Positions 3,451 to 47,922 of a stretch of DNA of 64,000 nucleotides are shown in pieces. Below the pieces are notes generated by a model. The model was not told the DNA's origin, made no database searches, and saw only the letters and a program-made list of their open reading frames with translations. Source of the DNA: Dictyoglomus turgidum DSM 6724 (GTDB lineage Bacteria; Dictyoglomota; Dictyoglomia; Dictyoglomales; Dictyoglomaceae). Position numbers and translations under genes: made by a program. The stretch is taken from assembly GCF_000021645.1 (NCBI RefSeq), contig NC_011661.1, positions 32,723 to 96,722 of the forward strand, given 5' to 3'. The stretch's first letter is position 1, and each line of letters begins with the position of its first letter.

Positions 3451-3493
3451 AAATAGAGGAGCAAGGGGCAACTTTCCCCTTACTCCTCTATTT
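3451..3493. terminator. Bidirectional hairpin terminator
   Basis: Long interrupted stem, AAATAGAGGAG and AAGGGG pairing with CCCCTT and CTCCTCTATTT, with T runs outside. It serves the secreted protein on the plus strand. It also overlaps the end of groES on the minus strand. Confidence 0.85.
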
Positions 3494-3749
3494 TTGCTAA
3501 AATATCTGCCTTACTTAGAATTAAATAGTCTTCTCCATCTATTTTTATCTCTGTTCCAGAATATTTTGCAAAAATTATCTTATCACCCTTTTTTACTTTA
3601 ATAGTCTCATCATCACCCACTTCTATTACCTCTGCAATTTGAGGTTTCTCCTTTGCTACATCAGGGAGAATTATACCCGATGGGGTTTTTTCTTCCTCCT
3701 TAACAATCTTAACAAGAACTCTATCCTCTAATGGCAAAACTTTTTTCAT
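3480..3749 (-). CDS. groES: Co-chaperonin GroES
   Basis: An 89-residue protein of normal GroES length. It begins PLEDRVLVK, has the mobile-loop region EEKTPSGIILPD at about residues 20-31 and the C-terminal DYLILSKADILA pattern. It caps the GroEL chamber during folding. GroEL is not adjacent; the gene instead follows a glutaredoxin gene by 23 bases and very probably shares its transcript. A GGAGG-type site lies just before the ATG. Confidence 0.95.
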   Translation of the reverse strand: MKKVLPLEDRVLVKIVKEEEKTPSGIILPDVAKEKPQIAEVIEVGDDETIKVKKGDKIIFAKYSGTEIKIDGEDYLILSKADILAKIEE

Positions 3750-3772: not shown

Positions 3773-4018
3773 TTATCTTAAACCTAACAAACGATCAATC
3801 TTATTCCTATCAAAACCTATTACAATATGCCCATTTATATCAATAACAGGAACTCCCATTTGCCCTGACTTCCTCACCATTTCTTCTGCTGCTTTTCTAT
3901 CCTTAGATACGTCTACATCGTAAAATCTTATACCCCTTTCCCTAAAATATCTTTTTGCTGCATTACACCAAGGACAACTTGGAGTAGAGTATACAATAAT
4001 CCTTAAGTTGCTACTCAT
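3773..4018 (-). CDS. Glutaredoxin-like thiol oxidoreductase
   Basis: An 81-residue thioredoxin-fold protein with the redox motif CPWC near residue 13, the cis-proline segment GVPVI and a glycine-rich end (VIGFD). It resembles NrdH/glutaredoxin-3-type proteins that reduce disulfides. I chose ATG 4018 because a GGAGG site sits 8 bases before it. A longer frame from 4084 adds 22 residues, but these would lie across the promoter and operator. It is the first gene of a glutaredoxin-groES transcript, suggesting a link between thiol or metal stress and folding. Confidence 0.88.
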   Translation of the reverse strand: MSSNLRIIVYSTPSCPWCNAAKRYFRERGIRFYDVDVSKDRKAAEEMVRKSGQMGVPVIDINGHIVIGFDRNKIDRLLGLR

Positions 4019-4035: not shown

Positions 4036-4063
4036 TATAATATACCCTAAAGGGTATATTATA
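4036..4063. promoter_or_regulatory. Perfect 12-bp inverted repeat, CsoR-like operator core ATACCC-N4-GGGTAT
   Basis: Two perfectly complementary 12-base arms flank the 4-base centre TAAA. The core ATACCCTAAAGGGTAT occupies 4042-4057. The repeat covers the -10 box and probable start site of the glutaredoxin-groES promoter, a repressor position. The same core with a different centre recurs at 40375 before hypA. It resembles operators of the CsoR/CstR/RcnR family; no such regulator gene lies in the window. Confidence 0.7.
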
Positions 4064-4084
4064 AGAATACAGGAAAAAAGTCAA
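4056..4084 (-). promoter_or_regulatory. Promoter of glutaredoxin-groES
   Basis: On the minus strand, TTGACT (4084-4079), a 17-base spacer and TAATAT (4061-4056). A TATAAT with 15-base spacing overlaps the same place. The -10 lies inside the inverted repeat. Confidence 0.6.
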
Positions 4085-40374: not shown

Positions 40375-40390
40375 ATACCCAAGGGGGTAT
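40375..40390. promoter_or_regulatory. CsoR-like operator ATACCC-N4-GGGTAT before the hydrogenase locus
   Basis: ATACCC (40375-40380) and GGGTAT (40385-40390) flank AAGG. The arms equal the core of the repeat at 4042-4057. The site lies 8 bases upstream of the -35 of the hypA promoter, a place where an activator or a looping repressor could act. Confidence 0.6.
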
Positions 40391-40398
40391 CTCATTTC

Positions 40399-40427
40399 TT
40401 GATATTTATTTAAAGTTAAGATAAAAT
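40399..40427 (+). promoter_or_regulatory. Promoter of the hydrogenase operon
   Basis: TTGATA (40399-40404), exactly 17 bases, TAAAAT (40422-40427). The hypA ATG follows 24 bases later, with a weak AAGGA site. Confidence 0.7.
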
Positions 40428-40451: not shown

Positions 40452-40850
40452 ATGCACGAGTGGGCTCTTGCTGAAGCAGTAGTAAAATCTGCAATAGATA
40501 TGGCTCAAAAGAAAAATCTGAGCCAAATAAAACTTTTATTCCTTAGAGTAGGTGAAGTTCAACAAATTGATATGGAAGTATTTAATTATGCCATAAAGGA
40601 GCTTTCTAAAGGAACTATTTTAGAAAATTCCGAGATAAAGTACGAGATTTTTCCTGCAAAACTGGTTTGCAATAACTGTGGAAATATATGGAGTTATATG
40701 GAAAGTTTTCAAGGACTTACTGATGAAGAAAAAGAAGCTATTCACTTTATACCAGAGACTATTCACGTATATATGAAGTGTCCAAAGTGTAAAAGTGCAG
40801 ATTTTGAGATAAAAGAAGGGAGAGGGGTCTTTATAGAGGACATAAAATGA
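40452..40850 (+). CDS. hypA: Hydrogenase nickel-insertion protein HypA, archaeal-type
   Basis: 132 residues. The nickel ligand H2 starts the protein (MHEWALAEA), and the zinc pairs are C73/C76 and C110/C113. Between them is an insert of 33 residues ending in HFIPETIHVYMKCPKC, like the long HypA of Thermococcus rather than the short bacterial loop. It brings nickel to the large subunit with the ATPase encoded next, whose ATG overlaps its stop by 4 bases. Confidence 0.93.
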   Translation: MHEWALAEAVVKSAIDMAQKKNLSQIKLLFLRVGEVQQIDMEVFNYAIKELSKGTILENSEIKYEIFPAKLVCNNCGNIWSYMESFQGLTDEEKEAIHFIPETIHVYMKCPKCKSADFEIKEGRGVFIEDIK

Positions 40851-41584
40851 CACATGATCCAAGACTTTCAATTATAGACAAAAGATTAGAGAGTGTAAAA
40901 AACATTATTGCTATAGGAAGTGGAAAGGGAGGAGTTGGAAAAAGTACTTTCTCTTCACTTCTTTCCTTATTCCTAAACAAAAAAGGCTATAAAATAGGCC
41001 TCTTAGATTTAGATATTTATGGACCTTCTAACCATGTCATATTAAATGCAGAAGATAAGTATCCTGAAGAAGAATATGGTTTAAAGCCTGTGAATGTAAA
41101 TGGAATAGATTTTATGTCCATAATCTACTTTACTCAAAATAAACCTCTGATTATGCGAGGAAAAGAGCTTACTGATACCATCCTGGAGATATTTGCTATT
41201 ACTCGTTGGAGGGATTTGGATTATTTAATCATTGATATGCCTCCTGGAATGGGAGAAGTACTTTTAGACCTCATAAGATTTATAAAAAACTTACAGTTTC
41301 TTATCATAACCAATCCCACAAAAATAGCCTTAGAAACAGTAGAAAAACTTATAAATTTCCTAAAAGAAGGAAATTATCTCATATTGGGCCTTGTGGAGAA
41401 TATGAAGATAAAAGATGGTAATTTTGTGAAGGAAAAGTGTCAAGAACTGAACATTAAATACTTAGGGCATATCTCTTTCTACGAAAATATAGAAGAAAAC
41501 TATGGAAATATAGAAAAATTAATAAATCCCTCCTTAGAAAAGGAACTTAATCAAATTGTTTCTAATTTCATACAAAAATCTTGA
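40847..41584 (+). CDS. Mrp/MinD-family ATPase in the HypB position
   Basis: 245 residues of a SIMIBI ATPase. The deviant Walker A GKGGVGKST is near residue 26, LLDLDIYGPS follows, and DYLIIDMPPGMG near 126 is the switch II region. It has none of the features of bacterial HypB (no N-terminal metal-binding CxxCGC, no GTPase NKxD). In Thermococcus a protein of this family works as HypB with long HypA, so the overlap with hypA suggests the same role here: ATP-dependent nickel insertion. A generic iron-sulfur carrier (Mrp) is the alternative. Confidence 0.85.
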   Translation: MTHDPRLSIIDKRLESVKNIIAIGSGKGGVGKSTFSSLLSLFLNKKGYKIGLLDLDIYGPSNHVILNAEDKYPEEEYGLKPVNVNGIDFMSIIYFTQNKPLIMRGKELTDTILEIFAITRWRDLDYLIIDMPPGMGEVLLDLIRFIKNLQFLIITNPTKIALETVEKLINFLKEGNYLILGLVENMKIKDGNFVKEKCQELNIKYLGHISFYENIEENYGNIEKLINPSLEKELNQIVSNFIQKS

Positions 41585-41602: not shown

Positions 41603-43282
41603 ATGGAGAAGATTAAGATTAAGGTCAATGGGAATGAAGTAGAAGTCTCTCCTGGTAAAACAGTCCTTCAGGTTTTAAAAGATATGGGAATCCATGTACC
41701 TGTCTTATGCCATTATGAACCTCTTATGCCTCAAGGATCTTGCAGACTCTGTGTAGTAGAAGATAGAGGAGTTTTAAAAACCGCCTGTACCACCCCTGTA
41801 GAACCTAATATGGACATAAAGACCGATACTCCTAATGTGATAAACTCAAGAAAGTTAGTACTTCAACTACTCTTTAGCGAAAGAAACCACTACTGCATGT
41901 ACTGTGAAGTTACAGGAGAGTGTGAGCTACAAGATTTAGGCTACGAATTTGGCTTAGATCACTTTGAATTTCCTACGTACGAAAGAAGATTTCCTGTAGA
42001 TAACTCTCATGAGTTTATAATGATGGATCACAACCGTTGCGTACTCTGTAGAAGATGCGTAAGAGCTTGCTCTGAAGTAGCAGGACATTTCGTATTAGGA
42101 GAGATGGAAAGAGGAATAGATACAATGATCATTGCAGATATGGATGTACCTCTTGGGAATTCATCCTGCACCTCCTGTGGATTATGCGCCCAAGTATGTC
42201 CTACAGGAGCAATTATTGACAAAAGATCATCTTACCTTGGAAGGGAAGTTCAGTCAGAAATCATATATGCTAATTGCGATATGTGCCCTGTAGGATGTGG
42301 AATGGAAATATACAAGAAAAAAGGAGCTAATTTTATAGTTAAAATATATGGAGATTGGAACTCTGATGTATCTCGCGGACTTCTCTGTAAAACAGGAAGA
42401 TATCTCTCTTTATATGATGCAAAAGAAAGAGTCGTGGGCATAAAATTGAAGGATGAATTTGGATATAGAAGACTTCATGAAGACAATCTAATAAACATCT
42501 TCAAGAGCAAATTAGATAATGCAATTGCCTATGTAGATGGCTCTCTTTTCAATGAAGAGATAGAAATGATAAAAGAAATCTTCAAAGACAAAGTATATTC
42601 TCTTTATCCTAATGAGTCTCCTATACCTACAAATATTAAGCTATCTGAGCTTGATGACAAAGAATTTTACGTGGTCATAAATGCAGACCTAAACAGGGAA
42701 TATGGAGCGGTAGGATCCATTGTAAAGAGAAATGTGATAGGCAAAAAGGCAAAGTTAATGGTGATTGATAAGGAGTTCAATAGCCTTGCTAAGATAGCTG
42801 ATTATGTATTCAATATAAAGGATCTCAATTTAGCATTAGATATATTAAAGAAGCAAAAAGAAGTAATAATTATTTATAAAGATATTAATGAGGAAGAAAA
42901 ATCAACTCTCAATTCATTGAACAATGCCAAATTCTTATATCTTCCAAAAGAGACTAATTCTATTGGACTTCAAAAATATGGAATTAAGCATGAAAAAGCA
43001 AAAGCAGAAAATGTCTTTGTCTTTGGAAAGAATTTAGAGGGTATAAAAGATCTTCCATTACAAAATTCCTTTGTAGTAGTTTTTACTCCTTATGAAGATG
43101 AAATTTTAAGAAGGGCAGATGTTATAGTAGGAACAACTAATGGCTTTGAGAGAGAAGGAACCTTCTATAACTTAGAAGGAAAGATACTTAAGAAAGAAAA
43201 GGTCTTAAGACCAGATTTTGATGTATTAGATTTAAAATCTTTCCTTTCCAATGTATTAGGAAAAACTGAAAAAGTATCTTAA
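41603..43282 (+). CDS. NuoG/HoxU-like iron-sulfur subunit of the hydrogenase
   Basis: 559 residues that carry electrons. Cysteines C36, C47, C50, C62 form the [2Fe-2S] site. H96, C98, C101, C107 resemble the NuoG His/Cys4 [4Fe-4S] site, though the histidine is one residue rather than three from the first cysteine. C146/149/152/156 with C189/192/195/199 make a two-cluster ferredoxin domain, and C225/228/232 with C262 give another. From about 270 the protein is a reduced molybdopterin-oxidoreductase-like domain with no visible cofactor site. It lies just before the small subunit. No flavin/NAD subunit (NuoF/HoxF) is adjacent. Confidence 0.87.
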   Translation: MEKIKIKVNGNEVEVSPGKTVLQVLKDMGIHVPVLCHYEPLMPQGSCRLCVVEDRGVLKTACTTPVEPNMDIKTDTPNVINSRKLVLQLLFSERNHYCMYCEVTGECELQDLGYEFGLDHFEFPTYERRFPVDNSHEFIMMDHNRCVLCRRCVRACSEVAGHFVLGEMERGIDTMIIADMDVPLGNSSCTSCGLCAQVCPTGAIIDKRSSYLGREVQSEIIYANCDMCPVGCGMEIYKKKGANFIVKIYGDWNSDVSRGLLCKTGRYLSLYDAKERVVGIKLKDEFGYRRLHEDNLINIFKSKLDNAIAYVDGSLFNEEIEMIKEIFKDKVYSLYPNESPIPTNIKLSELDDKEFYVVINADLNREYGAVGSIVKRNVIGKKAKLMVIDKEFNSLAKIADYVFNIKDLNLALDILKKQKEVIIIYKDINEEEKSTLNSLNNAKFLYLPKETNSIGLQKYGIKHEKAKAENVFVFGKNLEGIKDLPLQNSFVVVFTPYEDEILRRADVIVGTTNGFEREGTFYNLEGKILKKEKVLRPDFDVLDLKSFLSNVLGKTEKVS

Positions 43283-43301: not shown

Positions 43302-43844
43302 ATGGGAAAGATAAAAGTTGCCTCCATATGGTGTGAAGGGTGTTCAGGATGCCATATGTCCTTTCTTGATATGGACGAAAGATTAGTGGAATTAATAAAT
43401 AAAGGGCTTGAAATAAACGCTACTCCTATAACGGACTTAAAGATTCCTGACGAGGAAACTGATATTGGAATAATTGAAGGAGCAGTAGCAACAGATCACC
43501 ATGAAGAAGAAGTAAAAATGATGAGGGAGAGATGCAAAATAATTGTAGCCCTTGGAGATTGCGCAGTCTTTGGTGGTATTCCTACCATGAGAAACTACTT
43601 CTCAAAAGAAGAATTATTAGAAAGAGGTTATATCACCACAGAAAGCACCGTAGATGGTAAAATACCAACTTCAAAGGAGATAGGAAAACATCTCCCTAAA
43701 ACAAAGGCGGTAAATGAAGTAATAAAAGTTGACCTCTATATTCCAGGATGTCCCCCTTCAGCAGATGCCATATATTATGTATTAAAGGAAGTTCTTGAGG
43801 GAAGAATTCCCAAATTAGAAGGCGAACTTCTTAAGTATGAATAA
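43302..43844 (+). CDS. hoxY: [NiFe] hydrogenase small subunit, HoxY type
   Basis: 180 residues, the short form of soluble group 3 hydrogenases. C14 and C17 (EGCSGCHMSFLD), C87 (GDCAVFGG) and C150 (PGCPPSAD) are the expected ligands of the single proximal [4Fe-4S] cluster. An extra C11 is next to them. There is no twin-arginine signal, so the enzyme is cytoplasmic. Confidence 0.92.
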   Translation: MGKIKVASIWCEGCSGCHMSFLDMDERLVELINKGLEINATPITDLKIPDEETDIGIIEGAVATDHHEEEVKMMRERCKIIVALGDCAVFGGIPTMRNYFSKEELLERGYITTESTVDGKIPTSKEIGKHLPKTKAVNEVIKVDLYIPGCPPSADAIYYVLKEVLEGRIPKLEGELLKYE

Positions 43845-43856
43845 GAGGTGATAAAT

Positions 43857-45281
43857 ATGGAAAAGAAGATTACTATAAGTCCAGTTACAAGAATAGAAGG
43901 ACATGCAAGGGTTACTATTCATCTTAATGATGACGGAAAAGTAGAAAGTGCTTTCTTCCATGTAGATCAATTTAGAGGATTTGAAAAATTCTCAGAAGGA
44001 AGGCACTTTTCAGAAATGCCTGTTATTACTGAAAGAATCTGCGGTATATGTCCTATAAGTCACCACTTAGCCTCTGCAAAGGCCACCGATGAGATCATAG
44101 GCGTAGAAATCCCAAGAACCGCTAAACTTCTAAGAGAACTCATTCACATGGGACAGATTATTCAGTCCCATTCCATGCACTTTTTTGAATTAGCAGGACC
44201 AGACCTTATTTTAGGTTGGGATGCAGATCCAAAGATCAGAAATGTGGTAGGATTAATTCAGGAAAATCCAGAACTTGCACTAAAAGCAGTAAAATTAAGA
44301 AAATTTGGACAAAGAATTATTGAACTTGTAGCAGGAAGAAGAATACATCCTACCTTTGCAGTTCCAGGAGGAGTTAATTCTTCTTTATCTCCCTCTGCAA
44401 GAGACGAAATTTTAAGTGGAATTGATGAAATGATTGGATACATTAAAGAGGGAATAAAAATAGCTGAAGACTTCATAGAAAAGAATAAAGAACTCTGCGA
44501 CGAATTTGCTTCCTTTCCCACAGGTTATATGGGACTTGTAAAAGAAGATGGTTCTCTTGAGCTTTATGATGGAAAAATAAGATTTATGGATAAAGATGGA
44601 AATATACTTAAAGAGTTTAAGCCTCAATATTATTTGCGATATATTGGAGAAAGGGTTGAAGATTGGACCTATTTAAAATTCCCATATTATAAACCCTTAG
44701 GATATCCTAACGGAGTTTATAGAGTAGGTCCTTTAGCAAGATTAAACATAGCTGACAAAATTAGCACACCTCTTGCCAATGAAGAATTCAAGAAATTTAA
44801 ATCCATTAATAATGGAAAACCAGTAGAAGGTTCCATATACTACCATTATGCAAGACTTATTGAAACTGTCTATGCCCTTGAAAGAGCAAGAGAAATCTTA
44901 GAAGATCCTGAGGTAATGAGCCAGAATGTATTAAAGATGGGAGAGGTGACTAATGAAGAAGGGGTAGGAGTAGTAGAAGCTCCAAGAGGAACCTTAATCC
45001 ACCATTACTGGGTAGATGAAAGGGGAACCATTGAGAAGGTGAATTTGATTGTATCCACAGGACATAATAATTGGGCTATGAGTAAAGCAGTAGAGATGGT
45101 AGCAAAAGCCTTTGTGGATGGTAAAAATCTTAAAGAAGGTATGCTTAATAGGGTTGAGGGGGCTATTAGATGTTATGATCCTTGTCTTTCTTGTTCTACT
45201 CATGCTATAGGAAAGATGCCCATTGTAGTTGAACTATACGACAAAGACGGAAACATCATTGATGTTATAAAGAGAGATTGA
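43857..45281 (+). CDS. hoxH: [NiFe] hydrogenase large subunit, HoxH type
   Basis: 474 residues. RICGICPISHH (C62, C65) and the C-terminal DPCLSCSTH (C443, C446) hold nickel and iron. The 25 residues after H449 are the tail removed by the maturation protease after nickel is inserted. I chose ATG 43857, 6 bases after GAGGTG; an in-frame GTG at 43848 lies inside that site. This layout fits soluble group 3 enzymes that take up or make H2 with a soluble carrier. Confidence 0.94.
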   Translation: MEKKITISPVTRIEGHARVTIHLNDDGKVESAFFHVDQFRGFEKFSEGRHFSEMPVITERICGICPISHHLASAKATDEIIGVEIPRTAKLLRELIHMGQIIQSHSMHFFELAGPDLILGWDADPKIRNVVGLIQENPELALKAVKLRKFGQRIIELVAGRRIHPTFAVPGGVNSSLSPSARDEILSGIDEMIGYIKEGIKIAEDFIEKNKELCDEFASFPTGYMGLVKEDGSLELYDGKIRFMDKDGNILKEFKPQYYLRYIGERVEDWTYLKFPYYKPLGYPNGVYRVGPLARLNIADKISTPLANEEFKKFKSINNGKPVEGSIYYHYARLIETVYALERAREILEDPEVMSQNVLKMGEVTNEEGVGVVEAPRGTLIHHYWVDERGTIEKVNLIVSTGHNNWAMSKAVEMVAKAFVDGKNLKEGMLNRVEGAIRCYDPCLSCSTHAIGKMPIVVELYDKDGNIIDVIKRD

Positions 45282-45700
45282 AGATATTACTTGTGGGATT
45301 TGGAAATCCATATAGAAGAGACGATGGATTAGGAATAAAGCTCCTGGACCTTATAGAACACAATGTAGAGAAAATTAAGGTCCAGGAGCTCACTTTTGAT
45401 ATGGCTGAAATCTTTAAAGATTATGATATGGTAATCTTTATAGATGCCTCCTTAGAAGGTAACGAAATAGTCTTTAGAAGAGTAAAAGAAGAAATTACTT
45501 TTTCTCCTCTTACCCATCACACTCCCTGCGAAGAACTTCTATCTTGGACAAGGGTACTATACGGAAAAACTCCAGAATTTTATCTTTTGTCCATAAGAGG
45601 ATACGATTTTGACTTTGGAGAAGAGCTTTCAGAAAAGGCAAAAGAAAATTTAAAAAAGGCAGAAGAATTCCTTAAAAGTTTTCTTGAAAACCATATATGA
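45278..45700 (+). CDS. Hydrogenase maturation endopeptidase (HoxW/HycI family)
   Basis: 140 residues. GFGNPYRRDDGLG at the N-terminus carries the nickel-sensing acidic residue, VIFIDASLEG the next ligand and HHTPCEEL the histidine. It trims the large-subunit tail. The TTG start overlaps the hoxH stop, so the two are made together. It overlaps hypF by 4 bases. Confidence 0.9.
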   Translation: MKILLVGFGNPYRRDDGLGIKLLDLIEHNVEKIKVQELTFDMAEIFKDYDMVIFIDASLEGNEIVFRRVKEEITFSPLTHHTPCEELLSWTRVLYGKTPEFYLLSIRGYDFDFGEELSEKAKENLKKAEEFLKSFLENHI

Positions 45701-47922
45701 AAACCTATAAATTAAGAATTTGGGGGATTGTTCAAGGAGTTGGTTTTAGACCCTTTATCTATAGACTTGCCAAAAGTCTAAACCTTAAGGGATGGGTTCT
45801 AAACTCCACAGGATCAGTACAGATACTCATTCAAGGAGAAGAAGAAAATATTGAAAAATTCATGGAACTAATTATAAAAGAGGCGCCTCCTTTATCAAGG
45901 ATTGAAAGAATAGAAAAGGAAGAAGTAAATTCCGAAGAATTAGAAGATTTTAAAATTCTTGAAAGTAAAGAGGATACAGGTTTTAACTTCATATCTCCTG
46001 ATATTGCCATATGTGAAGACTGTCTAAGGGAAATGAGAGATCCCAAAGACAGAAGATATAAATATCCTTTTATAAACTGCACCAATTGTGGTCCCCGATA
46101 TACCATAATAGAAGATCTTCCTTATGACAGAGAAAAAACCACCATGAAGATCTTTGAAATGTGTGAAGAGTGCAAAAAAGAATATCATAATCCTTCTTCA
46201 AGAAGATTTCATGCCCAACCCATATCCTGCTATGACTGTGGACCCAAAATTTGGATTCATGGAGATAAAGATAAGGATATCTTTGAAAAAATAGCAAAAT
46301 ATCTTGAAGAAGGAAAAATTCTCGCCATAAAAGGCATGGGAGGATTCCATCTTGCCTGTGATGCTACAAAAGAAGACATAGTGAAAAGATTAAGAGAAAG
46401 AAAAAAAAGACCCTCAAAACCTTTTGCCCTCATGATGAAAGACATAGAAATGATAAAAGAATACTGCTTTGTAAGTAAAGAGGAAGAAAAAATATTAAAA
46501 TCCAAAGAAGCTCCTATTGTGCTCTTAAGGACGAGAGAATTAAAAGATATATCTCCTCTTGTGGCCCCTGGAAACAAATACTTAGGAGTTATGCTTCCCT
46601 ATACTCCTTACCATCATTTAATTTTTGATTATTTCAAAAAGCCCATTATTATGACCAGTGGAAATTTATCCGACGAACCCATAGCAAAAGACAATGAGGA
46701 AGCTATGGAGAGATTAAAAAATATCGCGGATGTATTCGTACTTCACAACAGAAATATTAAGCATCGTATAGATGATAGCGTAGTATTTGTGGAAAACAAA
46801 GAAATACAAATTATAAGAAGAGCAAGAGGATATGCCCCAGACCCTATTAAAATTCCCATAAAAATAAAGCCTACCCTTGCCCTTGGAGGAGAACTAAAAA
46901 ATACTTTCTCCTTAGGAAAGGAGAACTACATATTTATAAGTCCTCATATAGGGGATCTCAAGGATAAAGAAACCTTAGAAGTTTACGAAGAGACTATACA
47001 AGAGTACATAAGACTTTTTAAGATCGAGCCAGAACTATTGGTACATGATCTTCATCCCCAATATCTTTCTACGGATTTAGCCCAGAGTTTTAAAAAATAT
47101 ATGGAGGTAAAGTCAATTCAACACCACAAAGCCCATTTCTATTCCCTTCTCCTTGATAGAGGAATCACCAAAGATATAATTTGCTTTACTTTTGATGGAA
47201 CAGGATATGGGGAAGACGGAAAAATATGGGGAGGCGAAGTATTTGTAGGAAATATAGAGGGAGTAAAAAGGGTCGCCCACTTTAAATACTTTCCTATTGT
47301 GGGAGGAGATAGCGCCATAGAAAATCCAAGAAAAATTGCCCTATCATACATACTTAAATATTTTCCTAAGGATGCAGATAAAATAATTTCTATGGATGAT
47401 TTTGAAAAGAATTTAATTAAAATACTCCTTGAAAGGGAAGAAAATATATTTTACACATCCTCTTGTGGAAGAATCTTCGACCTTATATCTGCCCTCTTAG
47501 GAATAAGAGAAAAAATTGACTATGAAGGACAAGCGGCAATTGAGTTAGAAATGCATGCCATGGAATCCTATGAAGAAGGTTATTATCCTTTTAAAATTAT
47601 CGAAAACGAAATCCTTGAAATTGATATTTTGCCAATGATTGAGAAAATCGTAGAAGAAAAAACCAAAAAAGATAAAAGAGATATTGCAAGAAAATTTCAC
47701 AACACCATCTCTCAAATAATAATTACCCTTTCAGAAATACTTAGAGAAGAATATAACATAAATAAGGTTGGATTTTCAGGAGGAGTTTTTCAAAATAGAC
47801 TCCTTTTACAAACCACTATTCCTGCCTTAAAAGAAAGCAAATTTGAAGTATATACCCACCAAAAAGTTCCCACAAATGATGGGGGAGTTTCCTTAGGACA
47901 AACTATTATGGGATATAAATAA
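45697..47922 (+). CDS. hypF: Carbamoyltransferase HypF
   Basis: 741 residues, full length. The acylphosphatase domain (1-90) shows GIVQGVGFRPFIYR. Two zinc fingers are CEDCLREM...CTNCGPRYT and CEECKKEY...CYDCGPKI. A YrdC-like domain (about 195-380) and a Kae1-like domain (QHHKAHFYSLL, FTFDGTGYGEDG, GFSGGVFQN) follow. It makes thiocarbamate on HypE, the source of the active-site cyanide. Its partners HypC-D-E lie 9 kb away, past a sugar operon. Confidence 0.95.
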   Translation: MKTYKLRIWGIVQGVGFRPFIYRLAKSLNLKGWVLNSTGSVQILIQGEEENIEKFMELIIKEAPPLSRIERIEKEEVNSEELEDFKILESKEDTGFNFISPDIAICEDCLREMRDPKDRRYKYPFINCTNCGPRYTIIEDLPYDREKTTMKIFEMCEECKKEYHNPSSRRFHAQPISCYDCGPKIWIHGDKDKDIFEKIAKYLEEGKILAIKGMGGFHLACDATKEDIVKRLRERKKRPSKPFALMMKDIEMIKEYCFVSKEEEKILKSKEAPIVLLRTRELKDISPLVAPGNKYLGVMLPYTPYHHLIFDYFKKPIIMTSGNLSDEPIAKDNEEAMERLKNIADVFVLHNRNIKHRIDDSVVFVENKEIQIIRRARGYAPDPIKIPIKIKPTLALGGELKNTFSLGKENYIFISPHIGDLKDKETLEVYEETIQEYIRLFKIEPELLVHDLHPQYLSTDLAQSFKKYMEVKSIQHHKAHFYSLLLDRGITKDIICFTFDGTGYGEDGKIWGGEVFVGNIEGVKRVAHFKYFPIVGGDSAIENPRKIALSYILKYFPKDADKIISMDDFEKNLIKILLEREENIFYTSSCGRIFDLISALLGIREKIDYEGQAAIELEMHAMESYEEGYYPFKIIENEILEIDILPMIEKIVEEKTKKDKRDIARKFHNTISQIIITLSEILREEYNINKVGFSGGVFQNRLLLQTTIPALKESKFEVYTHQKVPTNDGGVSLGQTIMGYK

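Follow-up and report, generated by a model that had tools for sequence, protein, structure and literature searches.

We consider it fairly probable that two palindromes in a 64,000-nucleotide stretch (the window) of the genome of the thermophilic anaerobe Dictyoglomus turgidum, together with a weaker third site elsewhere, are operators of the genome's sole CsoR/RcnR-family (DUF156) protein, and that this protein is a thiol- or persulfide-sensing repressor of three operons. The sites are conserved in related species and lost together with csoR, the genome carries a single gene of the family, and the same layout recurs in other phyla. From this evidence we infer DNA binding, repression and a thiol/persulfide effector.

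The first palindrome, at 4036-4063, reads TATAATATACCC-TAAA-GGGTATATTATA, a perfect 28-bp repeat with two perfect 12-base arms, and the second, at 40375-40390, reads ATACCC-AAGG-GGGTAT. A previous sequence-only reading had claimed that the glutaredoxin-groES and hypA promoters share ATACCC-N4-GGGTAT, that the former copy is extended to 12-base arms and that both are intergenic, and all of this was borne out. Throughout the genome, a single contig of 1,855,560 bp, the exact pattern ATACCCN4GGGTAT occurs twice, both copies being inside the window and intergenic when a TTG-extended glutaredoxin ORF and a spurious 55-aa ORF are disregarded. The many random coding copies that had been named as evidence against the motif were thus not found, the number in coding DNA being zero, and the earlier chance expectation of 0.004 copies per 64 kb has about the magnitude that a model without shuffling would give. 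Since the same pattern read backwards has one exact copy in the genome, the raw count of two is weak taken alone. When up to two mismatches were allowed, the window contained 7 sites as compared to 1.71 (sd 1.24) over 100 shuffles, all of which stayed below 7; the remaining 5 of these 7 sites are coding. At the genome level, however, the relaxed motif was found 90 times (83 coding, 7 intergenic) versus 97 times for the backwards control, which is the background level. In the genome of G002 (1,959,987 bases), the 13 of its 73 sites that were looked at, in 12 chosen stretches, were all coding. The case is therefore built on the place of the sites, their conservation and their co-occurrence with csoR, and not on their count. 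These same properties, including ends that are kept while the spacer is free to change, speak against the idea that the palindromes are functionless chance products of AT-rich promoters; the background-level mismatch count is in its favour, and we regard it as extremely improbable.

The 28-bp palindrome, with its core ATACCCTAAAGGGTAT at 4042-4057, lies in front of a minus-strand gene for a glutaredoxin-like protein of the YruB family (3773-4018; 81 aa, CPWC active site; TIGR02196, 105.6 bits at a cut-off of 88.55). Directly downstream on the same strand is groES2 (3480-3749; PF00166, 102.7 bits), whose 89-aa product is a second co-chaperonin with one segment shortened. By consensus reading only, the minus-strand promoter spans 4056-4084, with a -35 TTGACT at 4084-4079 and a -10 that is either TATAAT (15-bp spacer) or TAATAT (17-bp spacer). 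The candidate operator overlaps either one, and the claim that it covers the -10 holds under both readings. The canonical groES is located at 986221-986499 of the genome, followed by groEL (named by eye from the sequence). Alignment of the two GroES proteins revealed that the mobile-loop region is kept in GroES2 and that about 8 residues are missing from what we take to be the roof-forming segment. The best NCBIfam score of GroES2 was to PRK14533, a short co-chaperonin model, below the cut-off.

The second candidate operator, ATACCCAAGGGGGTAT (40375-40390), is positioned just above the -35 of hypA, as had been proposed, and the gap between them measures 8 bp; the plus-strand promoter at 40399-40427 (-35 TTGATA, 40399-40404; -10 TAAAAT, 40422-40427) is again a consensus reading only. 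The nickel metallochaperone gene hypA (40452-40850; PF01155, 86.4 bits) is the first gene of a plus-strand hydrogenase operon, in which it is followed by genes for an Mrp/NUBPL-type NTPase (40847-41584; PF10609), a HoxU/NuoG-like iron-sulfur subunit (41603-43282; NuoG/HoxU models, below cut-off), and the hydrogenase small (43302-43844) and large (43848-45281; PF00374, 127.6 bits) subunits, with matches to the VhuG and VhuA models below cut-off. Two further reading frames of 140 and 741 aa, with overlapping ends, occupy 45278-47922 of the same strand. A Pfam search with the 140-aa frame gave no matches; judged from sequence motifs, we take it to be hydrogenase maturation protease-like and the 741-aa frame to be HypF-like. 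A partial hypA operon is noted in the paper on the D. turgidum genome, whose main text makes no mention of glutaredoxin or thioredoxin (PMC5167688).

The third, weaker site, ATACTCCATATGGTAT at genome position 773790, is located on the -10 of an operon encoding thioredoxin reductase (TIGR01292) and a protein disulfide oxidoreductase (PDO; TIGR02187). This target had escaped the previous reading, as had the presence of another groES in the genome and the recurrence of such sites in other phyla. The remaining four intergenic sites of the relaxed motif, at 257382, 542996, 941770 and 1081911, were considered as additional regulon members and found to be unsupported. Near the last of these, ATTACCCCCTGGGTAT makes up one arm of the hairpin CCCAGGGGG-AATTA-CCCCCTGGG, beside an A run (L043:1890-1935), which is probably a terminator stem. 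Inspection by eye of the genes behind the 7 intergenic sites identified no evident copper gene.

A PF02583 profile search of the genome returned one gene, at 1087461-1087688 (E 1.5e-25; 90.3 bits, curated cut-off 22.8), and the CsoR-family gene whose absence would have counted against the proposal is thus present. This csoR gene is distant from its putative targets and follows genes for a sulfide/dihydroorotate-dehydrogenase-like and a GltA-like (NfnA-/NfnB-like) subunit. Autoregulation is common in the CsoR family. In this case we rejected it, as none of the nfn-csoR promoters of five genomes contained ATAC-N8-GTAT; the one-mismatch site AAACCCTAATGGGTAT in the promoter of G001 has one damaged arm.

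Orthologs of csoR were detected at the same place in four further Dictyoglomaceae genomes (G001-G004), and were missing from G005 and G006. Among the five csoR-bearing genomes, 12 of the 13 available promoters carried ATAC-N8-GTAT in the same position (glutaredoxin 5/5, trxR 3/3 readable, hypA 4/5); in G001 and G003, the trxR promoter is off the contig end. The background rate of this pattern is 0.024 per 120 bp. The repeats are thus conserved in related species, whose lack of them would have spoken against a function. Eight bases separate TAC and GTA at all 12 promoters. Across the genus, no change was seen in the 56 outer ATAC/GTAT positions and 8 in the 84 positions of the whole arms, as compared to 13 of 28 for the N4 spacer and 143 of 635 for the other promoter columns. 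The two csoR-less genomes lacked ATAC-N8-GTAT in both of their trxR promoters, with an N7 near-match in G005, and the glutaredoxin query that matched the five csoR-bearing genomes found no match in either of them. Each of the two has one groES copy, while G000, G002 and G004 have two each. As a separate observation, an exact ATACCCTTTTGGGTAT is present about 97 bp upstream of an unrelated, transporter-like ORF in the csoR-less G005 (L007:1501-1516). An exact copy of ATACCCAAACGGGTAT lies within a minus-strand, heavy-metal ATPase-like frame (932-2983) of G013 (L008:1501-1516), despite the absence of family members in a PF02583 search of that genome; this copy is probably due to chance.

The hypA site is not uniform across the genomes. 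It is missing in G004, carries 3 changes in 12 arm positions in G003, and lies upstream of the -35 with a gap of 7 to 9 bp across species. Conceivably, only the glutaredoxin and trxR sites are CsoR operators, and the repeat at hypA arose by chance, is vestigial or serves activation by another factor. Although this reading overlaps with others and is not exclusive of them, it seems doubtful to us, if possible, given that ATAC-N8-GTAT is found at the same place in all four Dictyoglomus genomes, with the ends kept and the spacer changed.

The earlier suggestion that the repeats resemble CsoR-family operators is supported by the published work on these proteins. The type 2 CsoR operator is ATATACCCCTNAGGGGTATAT, in which the TAC/GTA inverted repeat is essential, and CsoR-family tetramers bind in pairs on such repeats (PMC3902906). 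Like the CsoR sites of Streptomyces lividans, which have the palindrome ATATACCC..GGGTATAT with TAC/GTA ends flanking G-tracts, the Dictyoglomus sites retain these ends: swaps of TAC and GTA abolish binding in S. lividans, and the corresponding bases are invariant within the genus Dictyoglomus (PMC3902906). The spacer, however, is one base shorter (TAC-X8-GTA instead of TAC-X9-GTA), the nine-base spacing being absent, and the G-tracts are shorter than in the type 2 operator and vary in trxR and in orthologs. The targets differ as well, comprising copper genes in S. lividans and thiol-redox, GroES2 and hydrogenase operons here.

Cys30 and Cys59 are invariant in the five Dictyoglomaceae CsoR proteins, the former where helix 2 begins and the latter further along this helix, with helix positions inferred from family alignments. 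Copper sensors have an HxxxC motif (PMC4528141). At the His position of this motif, four residues ahead of Cys59, the four Dictyoglomus proteins carry Tyr and the protein of the sister-genus genome G004 carries His, such that the copper CsoR His-x3-Cys ligand pair occurs in G004 only and the Dictyoglomus proteins have the CstR combination of two cysteines without the metal-ligand His. Because the two cysteines are kept and the copper-ligand His is replaced, we favour sensing of thiol oxidation or persulfide over sensing of copper; among copper, persulfide and nickel, the protein sequence argues for thiol/persulfide chemistry. The best match to a solved structure was 7mq1 (E 1.3e-14), which is deposited as CsoR and which we take to be the pneumococcal persulfide sensor CstR. 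In a tree of 87 CsoR proteins based on few columns, the CstR reference was on a very long branch away from the Dictyoglomus protein, a placement that speaks neither for nor against its being a CstR, and of the NCBIfam models only RicR, FrmR and RcnR matched, all below cut-off.

The putative regulator is like Staphylococcus aureus CstR in being a DUF156 protein with two reactive cysteines, no His ligand and sulfur-redox targets (PMC5480029). In S. aureus, CstR is believed to act on a single operon, cst (PMC5480029), unlike the three dispersed operons proposed here, which encode thiol-disulfide enzymes, GroES2 and the hydrogenase. Dispersed targets including a thioredoxin are seen with another CsoR-family protein, TTHA1953 of Thermus thermophilus, which regulates sox genes and a thioredoxin and leaves the DNA upon cysteine cross-linking, but not in response to Cu, Ni or Co under reducing conditions (PMC10318464). 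TTHA1953 is also insensitive to NaHS, and differs from the present case in its consensus TACNNTACNNNNGTANNGTA, with a TAC-N4-GTA core, and in its sox targets (PMC10318464). It is by analogy with this cross-linking response that a thiol-oxidation or persulfide signal is suggested for Dictyoglomus.

We also examined 78 csoR loci outside Dictyoglomus. TACCC-N2-6-GGGTA occurred within 250 bp upstream of csoR at 21 of them, a rate 45-fold that elsewhere, while the control pattern was found 3 times in all and never upstream of csoR. Nine of the loci have a TrxR, PDO or Grx gene near csoR, and in five of the nine a matching operator was present at that gene or at the csoR operon. A Clostridiaceae glutaredoxin that is 63.5% identical to the query (L220) has two operator-like sites, the second directly after the -10; the PDO genes of L166 and L231, the latter co-oriented with csoR, have such sites too, as do L176 and L226 before csoR-trxR. 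In L227 the operator is looser and was recognized by eye; the TrxR genes of L168, L189 and L200 lack one. In the PDO gene of L166 (Clostridiales; 2027-2723), which is under an exact ATACCCCCCGGGGTAT, a TGA opens the second CxxC (T-P-T-stop-P-Y-C), as expected of a selenocysteine form.

The upstream enrichment at csoR and the site-free trxR promoters of the two csoR-less genomes are difficult to reconcile with a different regulator acting on the palindromes, for instance one of the Rrf2 family, for which there is one likely gene near genome position 1563067. Palindromes ending in ATACC do occur in other families, and an Rrf2-like ORF (named by eye) is present in L056; even so, we judge this explanation very unlikely.

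A closer competitor retains the same CsoR operators and makes the protein a metal sensor that is released by Cu(I) or Ni(II), the targets answering thiol damage caused by metal and the assembly of a nickel enzyme. It can draw on the similarity between this operator and the type 2 site of copper CsoR (PMC3902906), on the His-x3-Cys of copper sensors in the G004 protein, on HypA being a nickel chaperone, and on L166, where csoR is beside a heavy-metal ATPase-like gene and a PDO site is on the same contig. We nevertheless consider it unlikely, in view of the Tyr in place of the metal-ligand His in Dictyoglomus CsoR and of intergenic sites that, by eye, precede no evident metal-efflux gene. Moreover, outside Dictyoglomus a four-base spacer upstream of csoR went with proteins lacking the His (5/5) and a five-base spacer with proteins having it (13/16; p 0.0028), an association that is a lead and not a test, as four of the five four-base loci are from related actinomycetes.

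According to the thiol/persulfide reading, CsoR in reduced cells would occupy ATACCC-N4-GGGTAT and hold the three operons low. At the glutaredoxin-groES2 and trxR-PDO operons, the operator would lie on the -10 and start, a position that implies repression. At the hypA-[NiFe] hydrogenase operon, it would lie a short way upstream of the -35, where a bound octamer is expected to reach. We count it against this explanation that such a position fits activation too, with repression through occlusion of the -35 as the likelier outcome. Several points given above also speak against it: the background-level mismatch count, the nfn-csoR promoters that lack ATAC-N8-GTAT, the loss or decay of the hypA site in G004 and G003, the different consensus and NaHS insensitivity of TTHA1953, the His in the G004 protein, and the exact palindrome in the csoR-less G005. 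Joining of Cys30 and Cys59 by a disulfide or sulfur bridge, following oxidation or exposure to per- or polysulfide, would then release the DNA and induce the operons.

The CsoR family is known mostly for the detoxification of copper, nickel, formaldehyde and sulfide. No regulator of the CsoR type has been described for Dictyoglomus in the literature searched, in which no work on the two together was found, and no such regulon appeared among the matches listed for CsoR with GroES, glutaredoxin, trxB or persulfide, as judged by titles and the start of abstracts. The outcome is a testable three-operon regulon which, if true, would place thiol/persulfide stress, protein refolding and hydrogen metabolism under one switch. 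The tie of a second GroES to glutaredoxin, present or absent with the regulator, would be an unusual redox-chaperonin link. The findings further suggest a thiol-redox branch (glutaredoxin, thioredoxin reductase, PDO) within the CsoR family, recognisable from the missing His and the four-base operator spacer. More tentatively, and at somewhat less than even chances, a cysteine-only CsoR clade whose operators are a base shorter than those of the copper type may run thiol-disulfide repair in several phyla, and in Dictyoglomus also a second GroES and a [NiFe] hydrogenase.
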